This document shows positions 24,777-44,365 of a DNA stretch of 64,000 nt, one piece after another. This stretch comes from Nocardioides albidus (GTDB taxonomy: Bacteria > Actinomycetota > Actinomycetes > Propionibacteriales > Nocardioidaceae): assembly GCF_006335005.1 (NCBI RefSeq), contig NZ_VDMP01000027.1, positions 571,459-635,458 of the forward strand. Direction: 5' to 3'. Position numbers and translations under genes: made by a program. Under the pieces are notes generated by a model that was given only the letters and a program-made list of their open reading frames with translations, ran no database searches and was not told where the DNA came from. Each line of letters begins with the position of its first letter. Position 1 is the stretch's first letter.

Positions 24777-26477
24777 GTGGGTCATGTGGAGGTCGCCGGC
24801 GTCCGGTACGAGCTGCCCGACGGGCGGGTGCTGCTCGACGACGTGTCGTTCCGGGTCGGGGAGGGAGCGAAGGTCGCGCTGGTCGGCGCCAACGGCGCGG
24901 GCAAGACCACGCTGTTCCGGATCATCACCGGCGACCTGACGCCGCACGCGGGCGCGGTGACCCGCTCCGGCGGGCTCGGCGTGATGAGGCAGATGGTGGA
25001 CCGCGGCCTCGGAGAGGAGCCGACGATCGCCGACCTGCTGCTGGGCCTCGCGCCCGAGCGGGTGCGGAGGGCCGCCGTCGAGGTCGACCGCTGCGAGCTG
25101 GCCCTGATGGACGCCGACGACGAGGCCACCCAGCTCCGCTACGCCCACGCCCTGGCGGAGTACGCCGACGCGGGCGGCTACGACGTCGAGGTGGTCTGGG
25201 ACGTGTGCACCGTCAAGGCGCTCGGCGTCGCCTACGACCGGGCGAAGTACCGCGAGCTCCGCACGCTGAGCGGCGGCGAGCAGAAGCGCCTGGTGCTGGA
25301 GTATCTCCTCGCCGGCCCCGAGGAGGTGCTCCTCCTCGACGAGCCCGACAACTTCCTCGACGTGCCCGGCAAGATCCGGCTCGAGCAGCGCATCGCCGCA
25401 TCGGACAAGACGATCCTGTTCATCAGCCACGACCGCGAGCTGCTGGCCAACGCCGCCACCCACGTGGTCACCGTCGAGCTCGGCGCGGGCGGAGCCGGCA
25501 ACAGCGCCTGGACGCACGTCGGCGGCTTCGCGTCGTACCACGAGGCGCGCAAGGACCGCTTCGCGCGCTTCGCCGAGCTGCGCCGCCGCTGGGACGAGGA
25601 GCACGCCAAGATCAAGGCGCTGGTGCTGCGGCTGAAGATCAAGGCGGAGTACAACGACGGCATGTCGTCGCAGTACCGCGCCGCCCAGACCCGGCTGCGC
25701 AGGTTCGAGGAGGCGGGCCCGCCGACCGAGCAGCCGCGCGAGCAGCAGGTCACCATGCGCCTGTCCGGCGCCCGCACCGGCAAGCGGGCGGTCGTCTGCG
25801 AGGACCTCGAGCTCACCGGGCTGATGCGGCCCTTCGACCTCGAGGTCTGGTACGGCGACCGGTTGGCCGTGCTCGGGTCCAACGGCTCCGGCAAGTCCCA
25901 CTTCCTGCGCCTGCTCGCCGCCGGCGGCACCGATCCCGATGTCGAGCACCGCCCCGTGGCCGAGGTGCCCATCGCGCCGGTGGCGCACACCGGCCGGGCC
26001 CGGCTCGGCGCCCGGGTGCGCCCGGGCTGGTTCGTGCAGACCCACGAGCACCCCGAGCTGATGGGCCGCACGCTCGTCGAGATCCTGCACCGCGGCGACG
26101 GCACGCCGAACGGTCGCCAGGGGATGGGCCGCGAGCAGGCGAGCCGCGTCCTCGACCGCTACGAGCTGGCGGCGAGCGCCGAGCAGGCCTTCGACTCGCT
26201 GTCGGGCGGGCAGCAGGCCCGCTTCCAGATCCTGCTGCTGGAGCTGTCCGGAGCGACGCTGCTGCTGCTCGACGAGCCCACCGACAACCTCGACGTCCAG
26301 TCGGCCGAGGCGCTCGAGGAGGGGCTGGCCGCCTTCGACGGCACCGTCGTGGCGGTGACCCACGACCGCTGGTTCGCCCGCGGGTTCGACCGGTTCTGCG
26401 TGTTCGGCGCCGACGGGACGGTCTACGAGGCCGACGGACCGGTCTGGGACGAGGGCCGGGTGGCCCGAGCCCGGTGA
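24777..26477 (+). CDS. ABC-F family ATPase
   Basis: This 566-residue soluble protein has two ABC domains and no membrane segments. The first has GANGAGKTT at residues 37-45 and LSGGEQKR; the second has GSNGSGKSH and LSGGQQARF with LLLLDEPTDNLD. A helical charged linker (RRRWDEEHAKIKALVLRLKI) joins them. ABC-F proteins act on the ribosome, either in translation quality control or in antibiotic resistance, and sequence alone does not decide here. The GTG start has GACAAT 8 nt upstream. Confidence 0.88.
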   Translation: MGHVEVAGVRYELPDGRVLLDDVSFRVGEGAKVALVGANGAGKTTLFRIITGDLTPHAGAVTRSGGLGVMRQMVDRGLGEEPTIADLLLGLAPERVRRAAVEVDRCELALMDADDEATQLRYAHALAEYADAGGYDVEVVWDVCTVKALGVAYDRAKYRELRTLSGGEQKRLVLEYLLAGPEEVLLLDEPDNFLDVPGKIRLEQRIAASDKTILFISHDRELLANAATHVVTVELGAGGAGNSAWTHVGGFASYHEARKDRFARFAELRRRWDEEHAKIKALVLRLKIKAEYNDGMSSQYRAAQTRLRRFEEAGPPTEQPREQQVTMRLSGARTGKRAVVCEDLELTGLMRPFDLEVWYGDRLAVLGSNGSGKSHFLRLLAAGGTDPDVEHRPVAEVPIAPVAHTGRARLGARVRPGWFVQTHEHPELMGRTLVEILHRGDGTPNGRQGMGREQASRVLDRYELAASAEQAFDSLSGGQQARFQILLLELSGATLLLLDEPTDNLDVQSAEALEEGLAAFDGTVVAVTHDRWFARGFDRFCVFGADGTVYEADGPVWDEGRVARAR

Positions 26478-29859: not shown

Positions 29860-32800
29860 GTGAACCCCCTGCTCCGCGGCGCCGAGGCACCCGCGCCGCG
29901 CACGCTCGTCGACGTGTTCCGTCGTACGGCGGCCGACCACCCGGACGCGATGGCCCTCGACGGCGGCAACGACACGGTGACCTACGCCGAGTTCGCGGAG
30001 GCGGCCGAGATCGTGGCCGTCGAGCTCGCCGAGCTCGGGGTCGGGCCGGGGGACAAGGTCGGGATCCGGCTGCCGTCCGGGACGACCGACCTGTACGTCG
30101 CGATCATGGGGGTCCTGTTCGCCGGTGCCGCCTACGTCCCGGTCGACGCCGACGACCCCGAGGAACGGGCCCGACTGGTGTTCGGTGAGGCGCGGGCCTG
30201 CGCCGTCATCGGCCCCGGTCTGGTCATCGAGTCCCGGCGCGAGGCAGCGGCGCGGGACCGCAGGGACCCCGGCGTGGAGGACGACGCCTGGGTCATCTTC
30301 ACCTCGGGCTCGACCGGGACCCCCAAGGGCGTCGCGGTCACCCACCGCAACGCTGCGGCCTTCGTCGACGCCGAGGCGGCCCTGTTCCTCCAGGGCGCGC
30401 CGATCGGCCCGGCCGACCGGGTGATGGCCGGCCTCAGCGTCGCCTTCGACGCGAGCTGCGAGGAGATGTGGCTGGCCTGGCGGTACGGCGCCTGCCTGGT
30501 CCCCGCGCCGCGCGCGCTCGTGCGCAGCGGCGTCGACGTCGGCCGCTGGCTGACGGCCAACGACATCACCGTCGTCTCCACCGTCCCGACCCTGGTCAGC
30601 CTGTGGCCCGACGACGCGCTGGAACGGGTCCGACTGCTCATCCTCGGCGGCGAGGCGCTACCGCCCGAGCTGGCCGCCCGCCTGGTCAGACCCGGCCGCG
30701 AGGTGTGGAACACCTACGGCCCCACCGAGGCCACCGTCGTCGCGTGCGGCGCGCTCGTCGACGCCGAGGGTCCGGTCCGGATCGGCCTGCCGCTGGCCGG
30801 TTGGGACCTGGCCGTGGTCGACCCGGCGACCGGCGAGCCCGTGGGGGAGGGCGAGCGCGGCGAGCTGATCATCGGCGGCGTCGGCCTGGCCCGCTACCTC
30901 GACCCCGCCAAGGACGCCGAGAAGTACGCACCCATGCCGACCCTCGGCTGGGAGCGCGCCTACCGCAGCGGCGACATCGTCGTCAACGACCACGCCGGCC
31001 TGCTGTTCGCGGGCCGTGCCGACGACCAGGTCAAGGTGGGTGGGCGCCGGATCGAGCTCGGCGAGATCGACTCCGCGCTGCTGGCGCTGCCCGGCGTGAG
31101 CGCGGCGGCGGCCGCCGTACGCCGCACGTCGACCGGCAACCAGCTCCTCGTCGGCTACCTCACCACCACCGCGGAGTACGACGGCCCGGCGGCCACCGCG
31201 CACCTGCGGGCCACCATGCCGGCCGCGCTGGTGCCCCGGCTCGCGGTCGTCGACGACATCCCGACCCGCACCTCCGGCAAGGTCGACCGCGACGCGCTGC
31301 CCTGGCCGCTGGCCGCCGCCGACCCCGCCGACGCGGGCCTGCACGGCACCTCGGCCCGGATCGCCGAGGTCTGGCAGAAGGTCATCGGCGCCGCACCGGA
31401 TGGCCCGAGGTCCGACTTCTTCGACCTGGGCGGCGGCAGCCTGACCGCCGCGCAGGTGGTCACCCTGCTGCGCGCCGACCACGCCGACCTGACGGTCGCC
31501 GACCTCTACGAGAACCCGACCGTCGACGGGCTGGCGGGCTTCCTCGACGGGCTCGAGCCGTCCGTGCTGGCCGAGCAGAGCCGCAAGGTGAAGCCGATCC
31601 CGCGCAAGACCCAGGTCGGCCAGGTGCTGGCGATCCCGCTGCTGCGCGCCCTCGCGGCTCCGCGCTGGATCGCCGGGATCCTCACCCTCGCCAGGCTCGG
31701 CCACGACGTCCTCGACGTCGGGTGGCTGCCTGCGGCGCCGTGGTGGGTGCTCGTCCTGCTGCTCGCCGTCTTCGTCAGCCCGCCGGGGCGGATGCTCGTG
31801 GCCGCCAAGCTCGCCCAGGCGGTGCTCGCCGGCGTGGAGCCGGGTGCGTATCCACGCGGCGGCAAGGTCCACCTGCGGATCTGGACCGCCGAGCGGATGG
31901 CCGACGAGCTCGGCGCGACCCGGCTCGCCGGGGCGCCGTACATCACCTGGTACGCGCGCCTCCTCGGCGCCAAGGTCGCCCGCGGCGCCGACCTCCACTC
32001 GCTGCCGCCCGTGACCGGCCACCTGACCGTGGGCAAGGGCGCGTCGGTCGAGCCGGAGGTCGACCTCACCGGCTACTGGATCGACGGCGACACCCTGCAC
32101 GTGGGCGGCATCCGGATCGGCCGCCGCGCCCGGATCGGAACCCGCTCGATGCTGTGCCCCGGCGCGGTCGTCGGCGACGACGCCGAGGTCGCGCCCGGCT
32201 CGGCCGTCTTCGGCGAGGTCCCGACGGGCGAGTTCTGGTCCGGCGCCCCGGCGGCCCGGATGAGCTCGGTCGCCCGGGGGCCGTGGGCCGAGCGCCCGCC
32301 GGCGTCGCGCCGCTCGCTGCGCACGTGGGCGATCGCGTACGGCGCCGTGGCCGGCCTGTTGTCCTGCCTGCCCGCGATCGCGGTGCTCGTCGTCGCGGTC
32401 CCGGTCCTGCTGCTGGCCGACGTCGGCAGCACCACCAGCGCCGGGGACGCGGCCGCGACGCTCGCGCCCTGGCTGGTGCCGGCGGTGCTGGCCGGCTTCG
32501 TCGTCCTGGCCGCCCTCGTCCTGGCCGCCGTGCGGCTGCTCGCGCTCGGCGTGAAGGCCGGCGCGCACCCGCTGCAGAGCCGCCCGGCACTGTGCATCTG
32601 GTCGACGATCCGAGTGCTCGACGAGGCCCGGACCTGGCTGTTCCCGCTCTACAGCTCGCAGCTCACCCCCGGCTGGCTGCGGCTGCTCGGCGCGAGGATC
32701 GGCAAGGACGTCGAGGCCTCGACCGCCCTGATGATCCCGTCGCTGGTGAGCGTCAGCGACCAGGCGTTCCTGGCCGACGACACCCTGATCGGCGGCTACG

Positions 32801-33717
32801 AGCTCGGCGGCGGCTGGCTGCGCGCCGAGCGGGTCAAGGTCGGCAAGCGCGCGTTCGTCGGCAACTCCGCGATGGCCGCGCCCGGCCGCAAGGTCCCGAA
32901 GCGCTCCCTGGTGGCGGTGCTCTCGGCCGCTCCGGCCCGCGGCACGGTGAAGGCCGGCGAGTCGTGGCTCGGGAGCCCGCCCGCACCGCTGCGTCGCTCC
33001 GCGCAAGGATCCGCCGACGAGCGCACCTACGCCCCGCCGACCCGCCTCAAGGTAGCCCGCGCCTGCTGGGAGATCGCGCGCCTGCTGCCCGTCACGCTCG
33101 CCGTTCTCCTCCAGCTCGCCGTGGCGCTGGGGACCCTGGCGGTGTCGGTCGACCACGGTGCGCTGGCCGGCGCGCTCGCCGTACCCGTCCTGCTGTGGGT
33201 CGCCGGCCTCGTCGCCGCCGTCGTCGCGATCCTCGCGAAGTGGCTGCTGGTCGGTCGCGTGCGAGCCGGGTCGCACCCGCTGTGGAGCTCGTTCGTGTGG
33301 CGCAACGAGCTGGCCGACACCTTCGTCGAGGTGGTCGCGACCCCGTGGTTCGCCGGCCTCGCGACGGGCTCGCCGCTGATCGCGGTGTGGTTCCGGGCGA
33401 TGGGCGCGAAGGTCGGCCGTGGCGTGTGGTGCGAGTCGTACTGGCTGCCCGAGCCCGACCTCGTCGAGCTCGGCGACGGCTCCGTCGTCAACCAGGGCAG
33501 CGTCGTGCAGACCCACCTGTTCCACGACCGGCTGCTCGCCACCGACACGGTCCGGCTGCACCGGGGCTCGACCGTCGGCCCCAACTCGGTGGTGCTGCCT
33601 GCCGCGTCGTTGGGCAAGCACGCTACGGTCGGCCCGGTGTCGTTGGTGATGAGGGGGGAGTCCGTGCCGGACAAGACGCGGTGGATCGGCAATCCCATCG
33701 GTCCGTGGGCCGACTGA
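29860..33717 (+). CDS. Pls/PosA-family membrane NRPS-like synthetase (epsilon-poly-lysine synthase architecture)
   Basis: This 1,285-residue enzyme has an adenylation domain (about 15-480: FTSGSTGTPKGV at 147-158, NTYGPTE at 284-290, YRSGD at 368-372, catalytic K474), a carrier domain (LGGGSLTA, phosphopantetheine Ser527), then six membrane helices at about 590-612, 624-640, 822-853, 869-895, 1074-1095 and 1102-1132. Three soluble domains with hexapeptide beta-helix character lie at about 650-810, 900-1060 and 1135-1285. This A-T-TM-C-TM-C-TM-C order is that of epsilon-poly-L-lysine synthetase, which has no classical condensation or thioesterase domain. The start is GTG at 29860 after a GAGAGG site. 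An M1 peptidase starts 9 bp downstream. The product is not proven. Confidence 0.9.
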   Translation: MNPLLRGAEAPAPRTLVDVFRRTAADHPDAMALDGGNDTVTYAEFAEAAEIVAVELAELGVGPGDKVGIRLPSGTTDLYVAIMGVLFAGAAYVPVDADDPEERARLVFGEARACAVIGPGLVIESRREAAARDRRDPGVEDDAWVIFTSGSTGTPKGVAVTHRNAAAFVDAEAALFLQGAPIGPADRVMAGLSVAFDASCEEMWLAWRYGACLVPAPRALVRSGVDVGRWLTANDITVVSTVPTLVSLWPDDALERVRLLILGGEALPPELAARLVRPGREVWNTYGPTEATVVACGALVDAEGPVRIGLPLAGWDLAVVDPATGEPVGEGERGELIIGGVGLARYLDPAKDAEKYAPMPTLGWERAYRSGDIVVNDHAGLLFAGRADDQVKVGGRRIELGEIDSALLALPGVSAAAAAVRRTSTGNQLLVGYLTTTAEYDGPAATAHLRATMPAALVPRLAVVDDIPTRTSGKVDRDALPWPLAAADPADAGLHGTSARIAEVWQKVIGAAPDGPRSDFFDLGGGSLTAAQVVTLLRADHADLTVADLYENPTVDGLAGFLDGLEPSVLAEQSRKVKPIPRKTQVGQVLAIPLLRALAAPRWIAGILTLARLGHDVLDVGWLPAAPWWVLVLLLAVFVSPPGRMLVAAKLAQAVLAGVEPGAYPRGGKVHLRIWTAERMADELGATRLAGAPYITWYARLLGAKVARGADLHSLPPVTGHLTVGKGASVEPEVDLTGYWIDGDTLHVGGIRIGRRARIGTRSMLCPGAVVGDDAEVAPGSAVFGEVPTGEFWSGAPAARMSSVARGPWAERPPASRRSLRTWAIAYGAVAGLLSCLPAIAVLVVAVPVLLLADVGSTTSAGDAAATLAPWLVPAVLAGFVVLAALVLAAVRLLALGVKAGAHPLQSRPALCIWSTIRVLDEARTWLFPLYSSQLTPGWLRLLGARIGKDVEASTALMIPSLVSVSDQAFLADDTLIGGYELGGGWLRAERVKVGKRAFVGNSAMAAPGRKVPKRSLVAVLSAAPARGTVKAGESWLGSPPAPLRRSAQGSADERTYAPPTRLKVARACWEIARLLPVTLAVLLQLAVALGTLAVSVDHGALAGALAVPVLLWVAGLVAAVVAILAKWLLVGRVRAGSHPLWSSFVWRNELADTFVEVVATPWFAGLATGSPLIAVWFRAMGAKVGRGVWCESYWLPEPDLVELGDGSVVNQGSVVQTHLFHDRLLATDTVRLHRGSTVGPNSVVLPAASLGKHATVGPVSLVMRGESVPDKTRWIGNPIGPWAD

Positions 33718-33726
33718 GGTCCGTCC

Positions 33727-35028
33727 GTGCCGCTCCTGCCCACCGCTGACCCGTACCTGCCCGGCCACGGCGACCCGTCGTACGCCGTGCGGCACTACGA
33801 CCTCGACCTCGCCTACGTCCCCGACGGCAACCGCCTGACCGGGACGGCGGTCCTCGACCTCGTCGTGCGCGAGCCGACCGCACGCCTGGTGCTCGACCTC
33901 GCGCACCTGCGGGTGTCGAAGCTGCGCCTCGAGGGCGCACGGATCAAGAAGTGGTCGGCCCGCGACCACCGGCTGGTGATCCAGCTCGACCGTGCCGTCG
34001 CGGCCGGTGCGGCGCTGAGGCTGACCGTCCAGTACGGCGGCTCGCCCAGGCCGGTGGTCGCCAAGCATCACGGCGACGCCGGCTGGGAGGAGCTCGAGGA
34101 CGGCGTCATCGTCGCCGCCCAGCCGCACGGCGCACCCACCTGGTTCCCGTGCAACGACCGGCCCGACGACAAGGCGACCTACCGGATCACGCTGGCCGCG
34201 CCCGCCGGCTACACCGTCGTCTCGAACGGATCCCTGGCCGCGCACGAGCGGCGCGCGAGCGGCGAGAGCTGGACCTGGGTGATGGACCGGCCGATGGCGA
34301 CCTACCTGGCGACCGTCCAGATCGGCCGTTACACGGCGACCGAGCACGACGCGCGCACCCGCACCGTCGCGCCACCGGACGCCGACCTCGTCGACTCCTT
34401 CGACCAGCAGCCCGCGATGCTCGCCTACTTCGAGCGCGTCTTCGGCCCGTACCCCTTCGACGCGTACGCCGCCGTGATCACCGACGACGAGCTCGAGATC
34501 CCCCTCGAGAGCCAGAGCCTGTCGACGTTCGGCCGCAACTTCTGCTCCTCCGACTGGTCCCAGGTCCGGCTGATCGCCCACGAGCTGGCCCACCAGTGGT
34601 ACGGCAACGCCGTCACCCTGCGCCGTTGGCAGGACATCTGGCTGCACGAGGGCTTCGCCTGCTACGCCGAGTGGCTGTGGTCGGAGGAGAGCGGTGGGCC
34701 CCGCACCTGCGACGAGTGGGCCCGCCACCACCACGAGCGGCTCACCGGTCTGGACCAGGACCTGATCCTCGCCGACCCCGGCCCGGAGCTGATGTTCGAC
34801 GACCGCGTCTACAAGCGCGGCGCCCTCGCCCTCCACGCCCTGCGCGTCGCCGTCGGCGACGACGCCTTCTTCGACGTGCTCCGTGAGTGGGCGGCCTCGC
34901 GGGCGGGGGACTCCGTCACCACCGAGGAGTTCCTCGACCTCGCGTCCGAGCGCACGGGCTCGGACGTCGAGGCGCTGCTGCGGCCGTGGCTGTACGACGC
35001 CGCGCTGCCGCCGTACCCGAAGGGCTGA
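33727..35028 (+). CDS. M1-family zinc metallopeptidase, short form
   Basis: This 433-residue protein has the N-terminal beta-domain and the thermolysin-like catalytic domain of M1 aminopeptidases. The zinc motif is H285-E286-LA-H289, with the third ligand E308 in WLHEGFA. The usual GAMEN exopeptidase motif is replaced by the segment IPLESQS, in which the Glu is kept. It lacks the large C-terminal domain of PepN. No signal peptide is seen. The GTG lies 9 bp after the Pls-like gene, so the two are probably co-transcribed, and the substrate may be that enzyme's product. Confidence 0.9.
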   Translation: MPLLPTADPYLPGHGDPSYAVRHYDLDLAYVPDGNRLTGTAVLDLVVREPTARLVLDLAHLRVSKLRLEGARIKKWSARDHRLVIQLDRAVAAGAALRLTVQYGGSPRPVVAKHHGDAGWEELEDGVIVAAQPHGAPTWFPCNDRPDDKATYRITLAAPAGYTVVSNGSLAAHERRASGESWTWVMDRPMATYLATVQIGRYTATEHDARTRTVAPPDADLVDSFDQQPAMLAYFERVFGPYPFDAYAAVITDDELEIPLESQSLSTFGRNFCSSDWSQVRLIAHELAHQWYGNAVTLRRWQDIWLHEGFACYAEWLWSEESGGPRTCDEWARHHHERLTGLDQDLILADPGPELMFDDRVYKRGALALHALRVAVGDDAFFDVLREWAASRAGDSVTTEEFLDLASERTGSDVEALLRPWLYDAALPPYPKG

Positions 35029-44011: not shown

Positions 44012-44365
44012 GTGGCCGTGGTCGGCGTCGGCATCGACGTGTGTGAGATCGCCCGCTTCGAGGAGTCGTGCCGGCGTACCCCTGCGCTGGTGACGAAGCT
44101 GTTCACCGAGGCCGAGCGCGACCTGCACATCCGCTCGATGGCCGCGCGCTTCGCCGCGAAGGAGGCGCTCGCCAAGGCACTCGGCGCCCCGCGCGGGATG
44201 GCCTGGCACGACGCCGAGGTCGTCTCGGAGGACTCCGGCCGACCGCGCTTCGTGCTGCGCGGCACCGTCCTCGCCGAGGCCGACGCGCTCGGGGTCACCT
44301 CGGTCCACCTCTCGCTGACCCATGACGGCGGGATCGCCTCGGCCGTCGTGGTGCTGGAGTCGTGA
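44012..44365 (+). CDS. acpS: Holo-[acyl-carrier-protein] synthase
   Basis: This 117-residue enzyme transfers 4'-phosphopantetheine from CoA to acyl carrier protein. The metal-binding segment [13 protein letters not shown] (about 6-18) and the catalytic [13 protein letters not shown] (about 46-58) are intact, as is the terminal [11 protein letters not shown]. The start is GTG. An AcpS-type enzyme does not necessarily serve the carrier domain of the Pls-like enzyme, which would normally use an Sfp-type transferase not seen here. Confidence 0.95.

Follow-up and report, generated by a model that had tools for sequence, protein, structure and literature searches.

The window analysed here is a 64,000-nucleotide stretch of the 4.48-Mb draft genome of Nocardioides albidus (contig NZ_VDMP01000027.1, positions 571,459 to 635,458 of the forward strand). 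It contains two adjacent genes: pls, which encodes a nonribosomal peptide synthetase (NRPS) of the Pls/PosA family, and a gene for an M1-family metallopeptidase homologous to PldII. As set out below, this pls gene very probably encodes an epsilon-poly-L-lysine (ePL) synthetase, and the peptidase would be the companion enzyme that degrades the polymer. Nocardioides thereby joins the predicted producers of ePL, an antimicrobial polymer and approved food preservative.

Domain organisation of the synthetase

The pls reading frame is intact, with a GTG start and a single stop (Table 1), and GGATCGAGAG lies immediately upstream of the start codon. A protein of N. carbamazepini aligns with the window Pls over residues 1-1285 at 93% identity. 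Pfam profiles locate an AMP-binding domain (PF00501, E 1e-64) at residues 20-345 and a carrier domain (PF00550, E 5.2e-12) at residues 500-562, and the NCBIfam model TIGR02353, 'Pls/PosA family NRPS', matches the terminal half with 651.8 bits (E 1.3e-195), above its curated membership cut-off of 423.1 bits; these E-values exclude chance. Ser527, the phosphopantetheine site of the carrier, stands within a GGGSL motif and is serine in 86/86 ePL-clade rows of the family alignment. A Pfam scan of the protein (five families, E up to 0.1) yielded no condensation, epimerisation or thioesterase domain.

By hydropathy, the terminal half contains four strong membrane helices (823-902, 1070-1136) and a weaker first pair at about residues 617-649, and an AlphaFold2 model has helices at all three of these positions. 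The protein follows the order adenylation (A) domain, thiolation (T) domain and three successive units of a membrane-helix pair and a C domain, the first helix pair being weak by hydropathy and C1 the least confident beta-helix. A preliminary description of the locus had proposed just such a full-length Pls-type synthetase in a host other than Streptomyces, with an A domain, a carrier with Ser527, six membrane helices, three beta-helix domains and no classical condensation, epimerisation or thioesterase domain. The profile matches and the domain order bear it out; of the six helices, four are strong by hydropathy, and the model has helices at the weaker first pair too.

Substrate pocket and phylogeny

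The ten residues lining the substrate pocket of the A domain (D197, A198, E201, S240, I261, G263, T285, V293, V294 and K474) spell the code DAESIGTVVK, which, as read from the alignment, is identical at 10/10 positions to that of the Streptomyces albulus ePL synthetase (PDB 7WEW). The same code is found in five plasmid-borne enzymes (L135-L138, L142) and in 80/80 named loci, these being the best 80 of at least 579 relatives, selected for their likeness to the window Pls and hence no independent sample. As a control, the same alignment columns give DMEHNGTVSK for Acinetobacter baumannii (L141), the code published for its delta-poly-L-ornithine synthetase PosA (PMC10522769). The second pocket position has been described as Phe in diaminopropionate and diaminobutyrate enzymes, Met in PosA and Ala in lysine enzymes (PMC10522769); in the window it is Ala198, neither the Met of the one nor the Phe of the others. 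Among solved structures, 7WEW is also the closest to the A domain (E 7.8e-186; next chain 3.6e-111), which is 63.6% identical to it over 478 positions, compared with 37.3% over 467 positions for the A. baumannii enzyme.

Two trees, one of 49 and one of 42 proteins, place the window enzyme, 7WEW and the Streptomyces enzymes L135, L138 and L142 in one clade with full support (Shimodaira-Hasegawa-like approximate likelihood ratio test 100; branch lengths 2.96 and 2.48, respectively), apart from the enzymes with the PosA code, those of DLED type (the pockets of L143, L145 and L147) and those of DFE type. Both trees were built by a quick method and have long outer branches. The first includes 37 of the 80 named loci and came with a warning that the long branch of L140 meets the clade of the window and 7WEW; the second, with 22 of the 80, was therefore built without L140, and also without L151, which lacks an A domain. 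The clade assignment is matched by residue conservation: at 46 C-terminal positions conserved throughout the family (at least 84/86 ePL-clade rows and 5/5 others) the window keeps the family residue without exception, and of 91 further positions at which the ePL clade is fixed (85/86 or more) it deviates only at residue 653, with Gln for Arg. The two tests that the preliminary description had named as able to refute its reading thus both speak for an ordinary Pls: the protein groups with the S. albulus enzyme, not with one of another proven product, and it keeps the complete set of 46 residues. Throughout a phylum-wide sample, the Pls terminal domain was detected in 24 of 396 genomes, and in one of 14 control genomes, that of Corynebacterium glutamicum.

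Table 1. Features of the pls locus (window coordinates)
Feature	Position	Strand	Remarks
pls, Pls/PosA-family NRPS, predicted ePL synthetase	29860..33717	+	1285 residues, GTG start
Adenylation domain, residues 4-487	29869..31320	+	E 3.6e-187 against 7WEW
Carrier (thiolation) domain	31357..31545	+	Ser527 at 31438-31440
NRPS terminal domain TIGR02353, residues 588-1280	31621..33699	+	three units of a membrane-helix pair plus a beta-helix domain
C1 beta-helix, about residues 703-781	31966..32202	+	least confident in the model
C2 beta-helix, about residues 943-1051	32686..33012	+	from the model
C3 beta-helix, about residues 1174-1285	33379..33714	+	best hexapeptide O-acetyltransferase fold matches end here
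C3 motif QTHLFHDR, residues 1217-1224	33508..33531	+	contains H1219 and H1222
M1-family metallopeptidase, PldII homologue	33727..35028	+	433 residues; HELAH at 285, E308; starts 9 bases past the pls stop
Phosphopantetheinyl transferase-like match (ACPS, PF01648)	44024..44269	+	might charge Ser527; the genome yielded two such matches

The terminal half and its invariant histidine

Residues 572-1285 were modelled with AlphaFold2 from an alignment of 40 sequences, 39 of them taken from the 80 named loci and the other being the window protein itself. The model (mean predicted local distance difference test score 83.9, predicted template modelling score 0.87) shows helices followed by a beta-helix, repeated three times, in line with the three beta-helix domains of the preliminary description. 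C1 is the least sure of them: its confidence is moderate (10-residue means of 55-88), and the stretch after it (about model residues 211-250) is poor (37-62). At the level of sequence, C1 contains the best stretch matching Pfam Hexapep (residues 750-783), and both C1 and C3 give profile matches to hexapeptide transferases; the predicted C2 beta-helix rests on the model. With this model, Foldseek retrieved the hexapeptide acyltransferase 4eaa (3.9e-05), and VIA-align gave its best score to 3hjj_B (Z 7.7, root-mean-square deviation 3.1 over 146 aligned residues) for model residues 558-714, which contain C3. Such moderate scores for a predicted structure support the fold class, not the precise function. 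In a search of the PDB with the C-terminal profile, the best 60 of 133 matches (top value 4.1e-08) were all short and to hexapeptide-repeat proteins, with acetyltransferases and gamma carbonic anhydrases among them, and none of these 60 covers the whole terminal domain.

An alignment of the terminal half of 91 family members contains 18 invariant polar residues, of which five fall in the C2 beta-helix, five in C3 and none in C1. Among them, H1219 in C3 is the sole invariant histidine. When ten members were added, H1219, Q1217, D973, N1002, R673 and W675 remained invariant (101/101), and D1223 and R1224 were found to vary in some. Position 1222 is His in 86/86 ePL-clade rows versus Glu in 15/15 others; it was picked from 38 positions that split the clade from these 15, two of which, 1247 and 1265, do so just as cleanly, because H1219 stands three residues before it. 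The His/Glu split may be mere clade history.

The downstream M1 peptidase

The M1 zinc site, HExxH-18-E, is intact in all 84 aligned peptidases, that of the window included. An M1 gene lies downstream of pls in every one of the 80 named loci; the first M1 codon that aligns is no more than about 120 bases away in 75 of them and 632-2173 bases away in the remaining five. Loci from genomes of the genus and the family (L009-L054) have the pair in 45 of 46 cases, the exception, L049, being only distantly related and lying at the end of its contig. Of 59 genomes of the genus, 27 have a pls above the cut-off, and an M1 protein of at least 57% identity occurs in exactly the same 27; in the other 32, which are without pls, the best-scoring M1 protein is 41% identical. 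This exact co-occurrence supports the notion that the two proteins work as one unit. Among the plasmid-borne enzymes with the ePL pocket, three of five have an M1 gene nearby (L135, L137, L142), and none of the five enzymes of other types (L139, L140, L143, L144 and, unlike the window, the PosA enzyme L141) has one in 2.9-5.0 kb of downstream sequence; L145-L154 lie outside this test. A pls-peptidase operon, unlike the context of other synthetases, has been reported for Streptomyces and Corynebacterium (PMC8117764), and S. albulus pldII adjoins pls (PMC9223678). The view of the preliminary description that the gene lies outside poly-lysine clusters thus finds no support, since the M1 gene is found downstream just as in the published pls-pldII pair (PMC8117764, PMC9223678).

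According to the same work on S. albulus, PldII is located outside the membrane (PMC9223678). Ahead of the start of the window M1 gene, just three further codons of the frame are open (436 versus 433 codons), and so the enzyme has no leader; nor is its N-terminus hydrophobic. The M1 proteins of Streptomyces L135 and L142, by comparison, possess a hydrophobic leader with an RR pair, resembling a twin-arginine signal. Leaving aside the window, three of 83 M1 homologues pass the hydropathy threshold, L135, L142 and L091, the last probably an artefact of a long upstream frame; in this comparison start codons are inferred and the hydropathy measure is crude. Since the window enzyme is leaderless while S. 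albulus PldII lies outside the membrane, the Nocardioides peptidase may, to judge from its sequence, act inside the cell.

Discussion

With S. albulus Pls and its pldII gene, the Nocardioides system shares the complete pocket, the clade, the published domain order and an M1-type gene directly downstream, although the A domains are just 63.6% identical. Most likely, then, the locus represents a new host of a known two-gene system, not a new polymer machine. That Pls extends beyond Streptomyces is known: the literature already has it from coryneform actinobacteria, Kitasatospora and fungi (PMC8117764), and NCBI already labels such proteins as Pls/PosA family. Another close parallel is the Pls of Corynebacterium variabile and other coryneforms, likewise actinobacterial, outside Streptomyces and encoded in one operon with a peptidase, though in a different genus (PMC8117764).

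The domain composition, the pocket identity, the clade, the pairing of the genes and the conserved residues are established by the analysis; the product, the catalytic site and the role of the peptidase we infer as follows. The A domain would activate L-lysine as lysyl-AMP and load it onto the phosphopantetheine arm of Ser527; C3, with its invariant histidine, is probably the catalytic unit, and C1 and C2 would be mainly structural or guide the substrate. The M1 peptidase would trim or clear the polymer and may thereby protect the cell. For the known synthetase, the A domain is described as loading lysine on the carrier and C1-C3 as linking carrier-bound lysine to a free acceptor (PMC8949500).

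Several observations weigh against an ePL synthetase with a PldII-like companion. The sole row of proven product in the clade of the window is S. albulus 7WEW, an A domain, and no full-length enzyme proven to make ePL is among the rows; the Streptomyces enzymes L135, L138 and L142, which share the pocket and served as full-length stand-ins for S. albulus, are just 46.6-48.4% identical to the window in their C-terminal part. Compared with the ePL-clade consensus (95% threshold), the window protein differs at 13 positions, six of them gaps in the other rows. The pls-M1 pair is not universal either, because Rhodococcus opacus L136 and Streptomyces viridifaciens L138, both plasmid-borne and with the ePL pocket, give no M1 match in the roughly 4.9 kb that follow the gene, and the window peptidase, lacking the leader of the two Streptomyces homologues, may differ from PldII in its role. 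We found no literature report of ePL in Nocardioides, in searches that did not combine the spelling 'polylysine' with the genus name. Finally, C. variabile cultures gave no detectable ePL, though the C. variabile gene yielded ePL when expressed in S. coelicolor (PMC8117764); by analogy, the window gene may be silent in its native host.

The preliminary description had suggested that an undescribed homopolymer may be made, and the Pls/PosA family does include enzymes for delta-poly-ornithine, poly-diaminobutyrate, poly-diaminopropionate and poly-beta-lysine (PMC10522769). Although the pocket of the window enzyme is read from sequence, we consider any such product, described or not, improbable: PosA's DMEHNGTVSK, the DFE- types and the beta-lysine code DGESISVVNK (as published) all misfit the window, which is identical to 7WEW at the ten positions and falls into its clade, and on pocket and clade together we rejected a different product. 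The nearest family members with other products differ accordingly. PosA has the acidic pair D197/E201 in common with the window, but shows just 28.3% identity in the C-terminal part and Glu at 1222. L139, L153, L148 and L152, of diaminobutyrate or diaminopropionate type as inferred from their DFE- pockets, keep H1219, but have Glu at 1222 and form a separate clade; L148 and L153 moreover adjoin a diaminobutyrate transaminase gene, unlike the window, where no such family is among the matches listed for six scanned neighbouring proteins. It is just as improbable that the window merely carries a remnant of pls, silent or degenerate. True, pls is missing from 32 of the 59 genus genomes, and in L010 (G047), of the same genus, the frame is broken in the A domain; the window frame, however, is intact and retains all pocket residues, all 46 family-conserved C-terminal residues and, residue 653 apart, the 91 positions fixed in the clade.

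A lysine polymer that is short or internal, serving in storage, in phosphate or nucleic-acid binding or in wall attachment, and turned over by a cytoplasmic M1 enzyme instead of being secreted as an antibiotic, would be compatible with ePL synthesis and seems possible, if on balance unlikely. The closed upstream frame and non-hydrophobic N-terminus of the window peptidase, the rarity of leaders among its homologues (L135, L142 and the probable artefact L091) and the joint presence or absence of pls and M1 across the genus point in this direction; yet cytoplasmic localisation is a prediction from inferred starts and a crude measure, and the synthetase is a membrane protein, as in S. albulus.

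Hexapeptide acyltransferases use a histidine at the subunit interface, and by analogy the synthetase may possess a single active site in C3, within an intramolecular pseudo-trimer. That the three C regions form a single domain has been proposed before (PMC10522769). More tentatively still, one may extend this to the whole family: the terminal half would be a pseudo-trimeric acyltransferase with its lone active site at H1219 of C3, residue 1222 would tune the acceptor amine, so that C3 and the A pocket would both mark the product class, and most sampled actinobacteria, Nocardioides among them, would use a cytoplasmic, non-exported peptidase. Outside Streptomyces, ePL would then be an internal, regulated polymer. 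The C3 histidine and the adjacent His/Glu split offer specific residues on which to test how the family builds its polymers with no classical condensation domain. None of the papers listed in our literature searches deals with a catalytic histidine of Pls, but a mutational study by Kito (2013) is cited in a reference list, and we do not claim the C3 point as unpublished.

Genomic neighbourhood and relatives of interest

N. carbamazepini, the nearest named relative, keeps the neighbours seen in the window: genes for ABC-F, HtrA, an acyl-CoA ligase, citrate synthase, rplM, rpsI and glmM. The idea of a conserved chromosomal site was dropped, as citrate synthase, rplM and rpsI neighbours occur, within flanks of up to 6 kb, in just five of the 80 named loci (L055, L056, L058, L060, L070; all Nocardioides); even inside Nocardioides, several different sites seem to harbour the pls-M1 pair. 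The ABC-F ATPase of the window (24777-26477) has 'ribosomal protection-like ABC-F' as its best NCBIfam match, at 232.6 bits, which is under the cut-off of 380.

Some relatives deserve mention in their own right. In L010, the break in pls falls between query residues 394 and 395, leaving two frames with the downstream M1 gene kept, which may mean that the gene is decaying or that the sequence contains an error. L140, on a plasmid of Streptomyces sp. NBC_00060, has the pocket DSECYGGVTK and a very long branch; this code is that of a Bdellovibrionales enzyme whose product is unknown and whose activity on arginine is modest (PMC10522769), and an undescribed polymer is more to be expected from L140 than from the window gene. 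The DLEDIG(S/T)VVK pockets of L143, L145 and L147 (Azospirillum, Rhizobium) come near a group described as of unknown substrate (PMC10522769). L151 (Embleya sp. NBC_00888), G358, G325, G565 and G531 have frames of about 824-946 residues with a Pls terminal domain, a length that leaves no room for a complete A domain; these may be polymerisation domains that stand alone, or else broken genes. In L146 and L150 (Sphingomonas, Aureimonas), the synthetase gene stands in a row with genes for a phosphopantetheinyl transferase and a GNAT acetyltransferase, unlike the pls-M1 pair.

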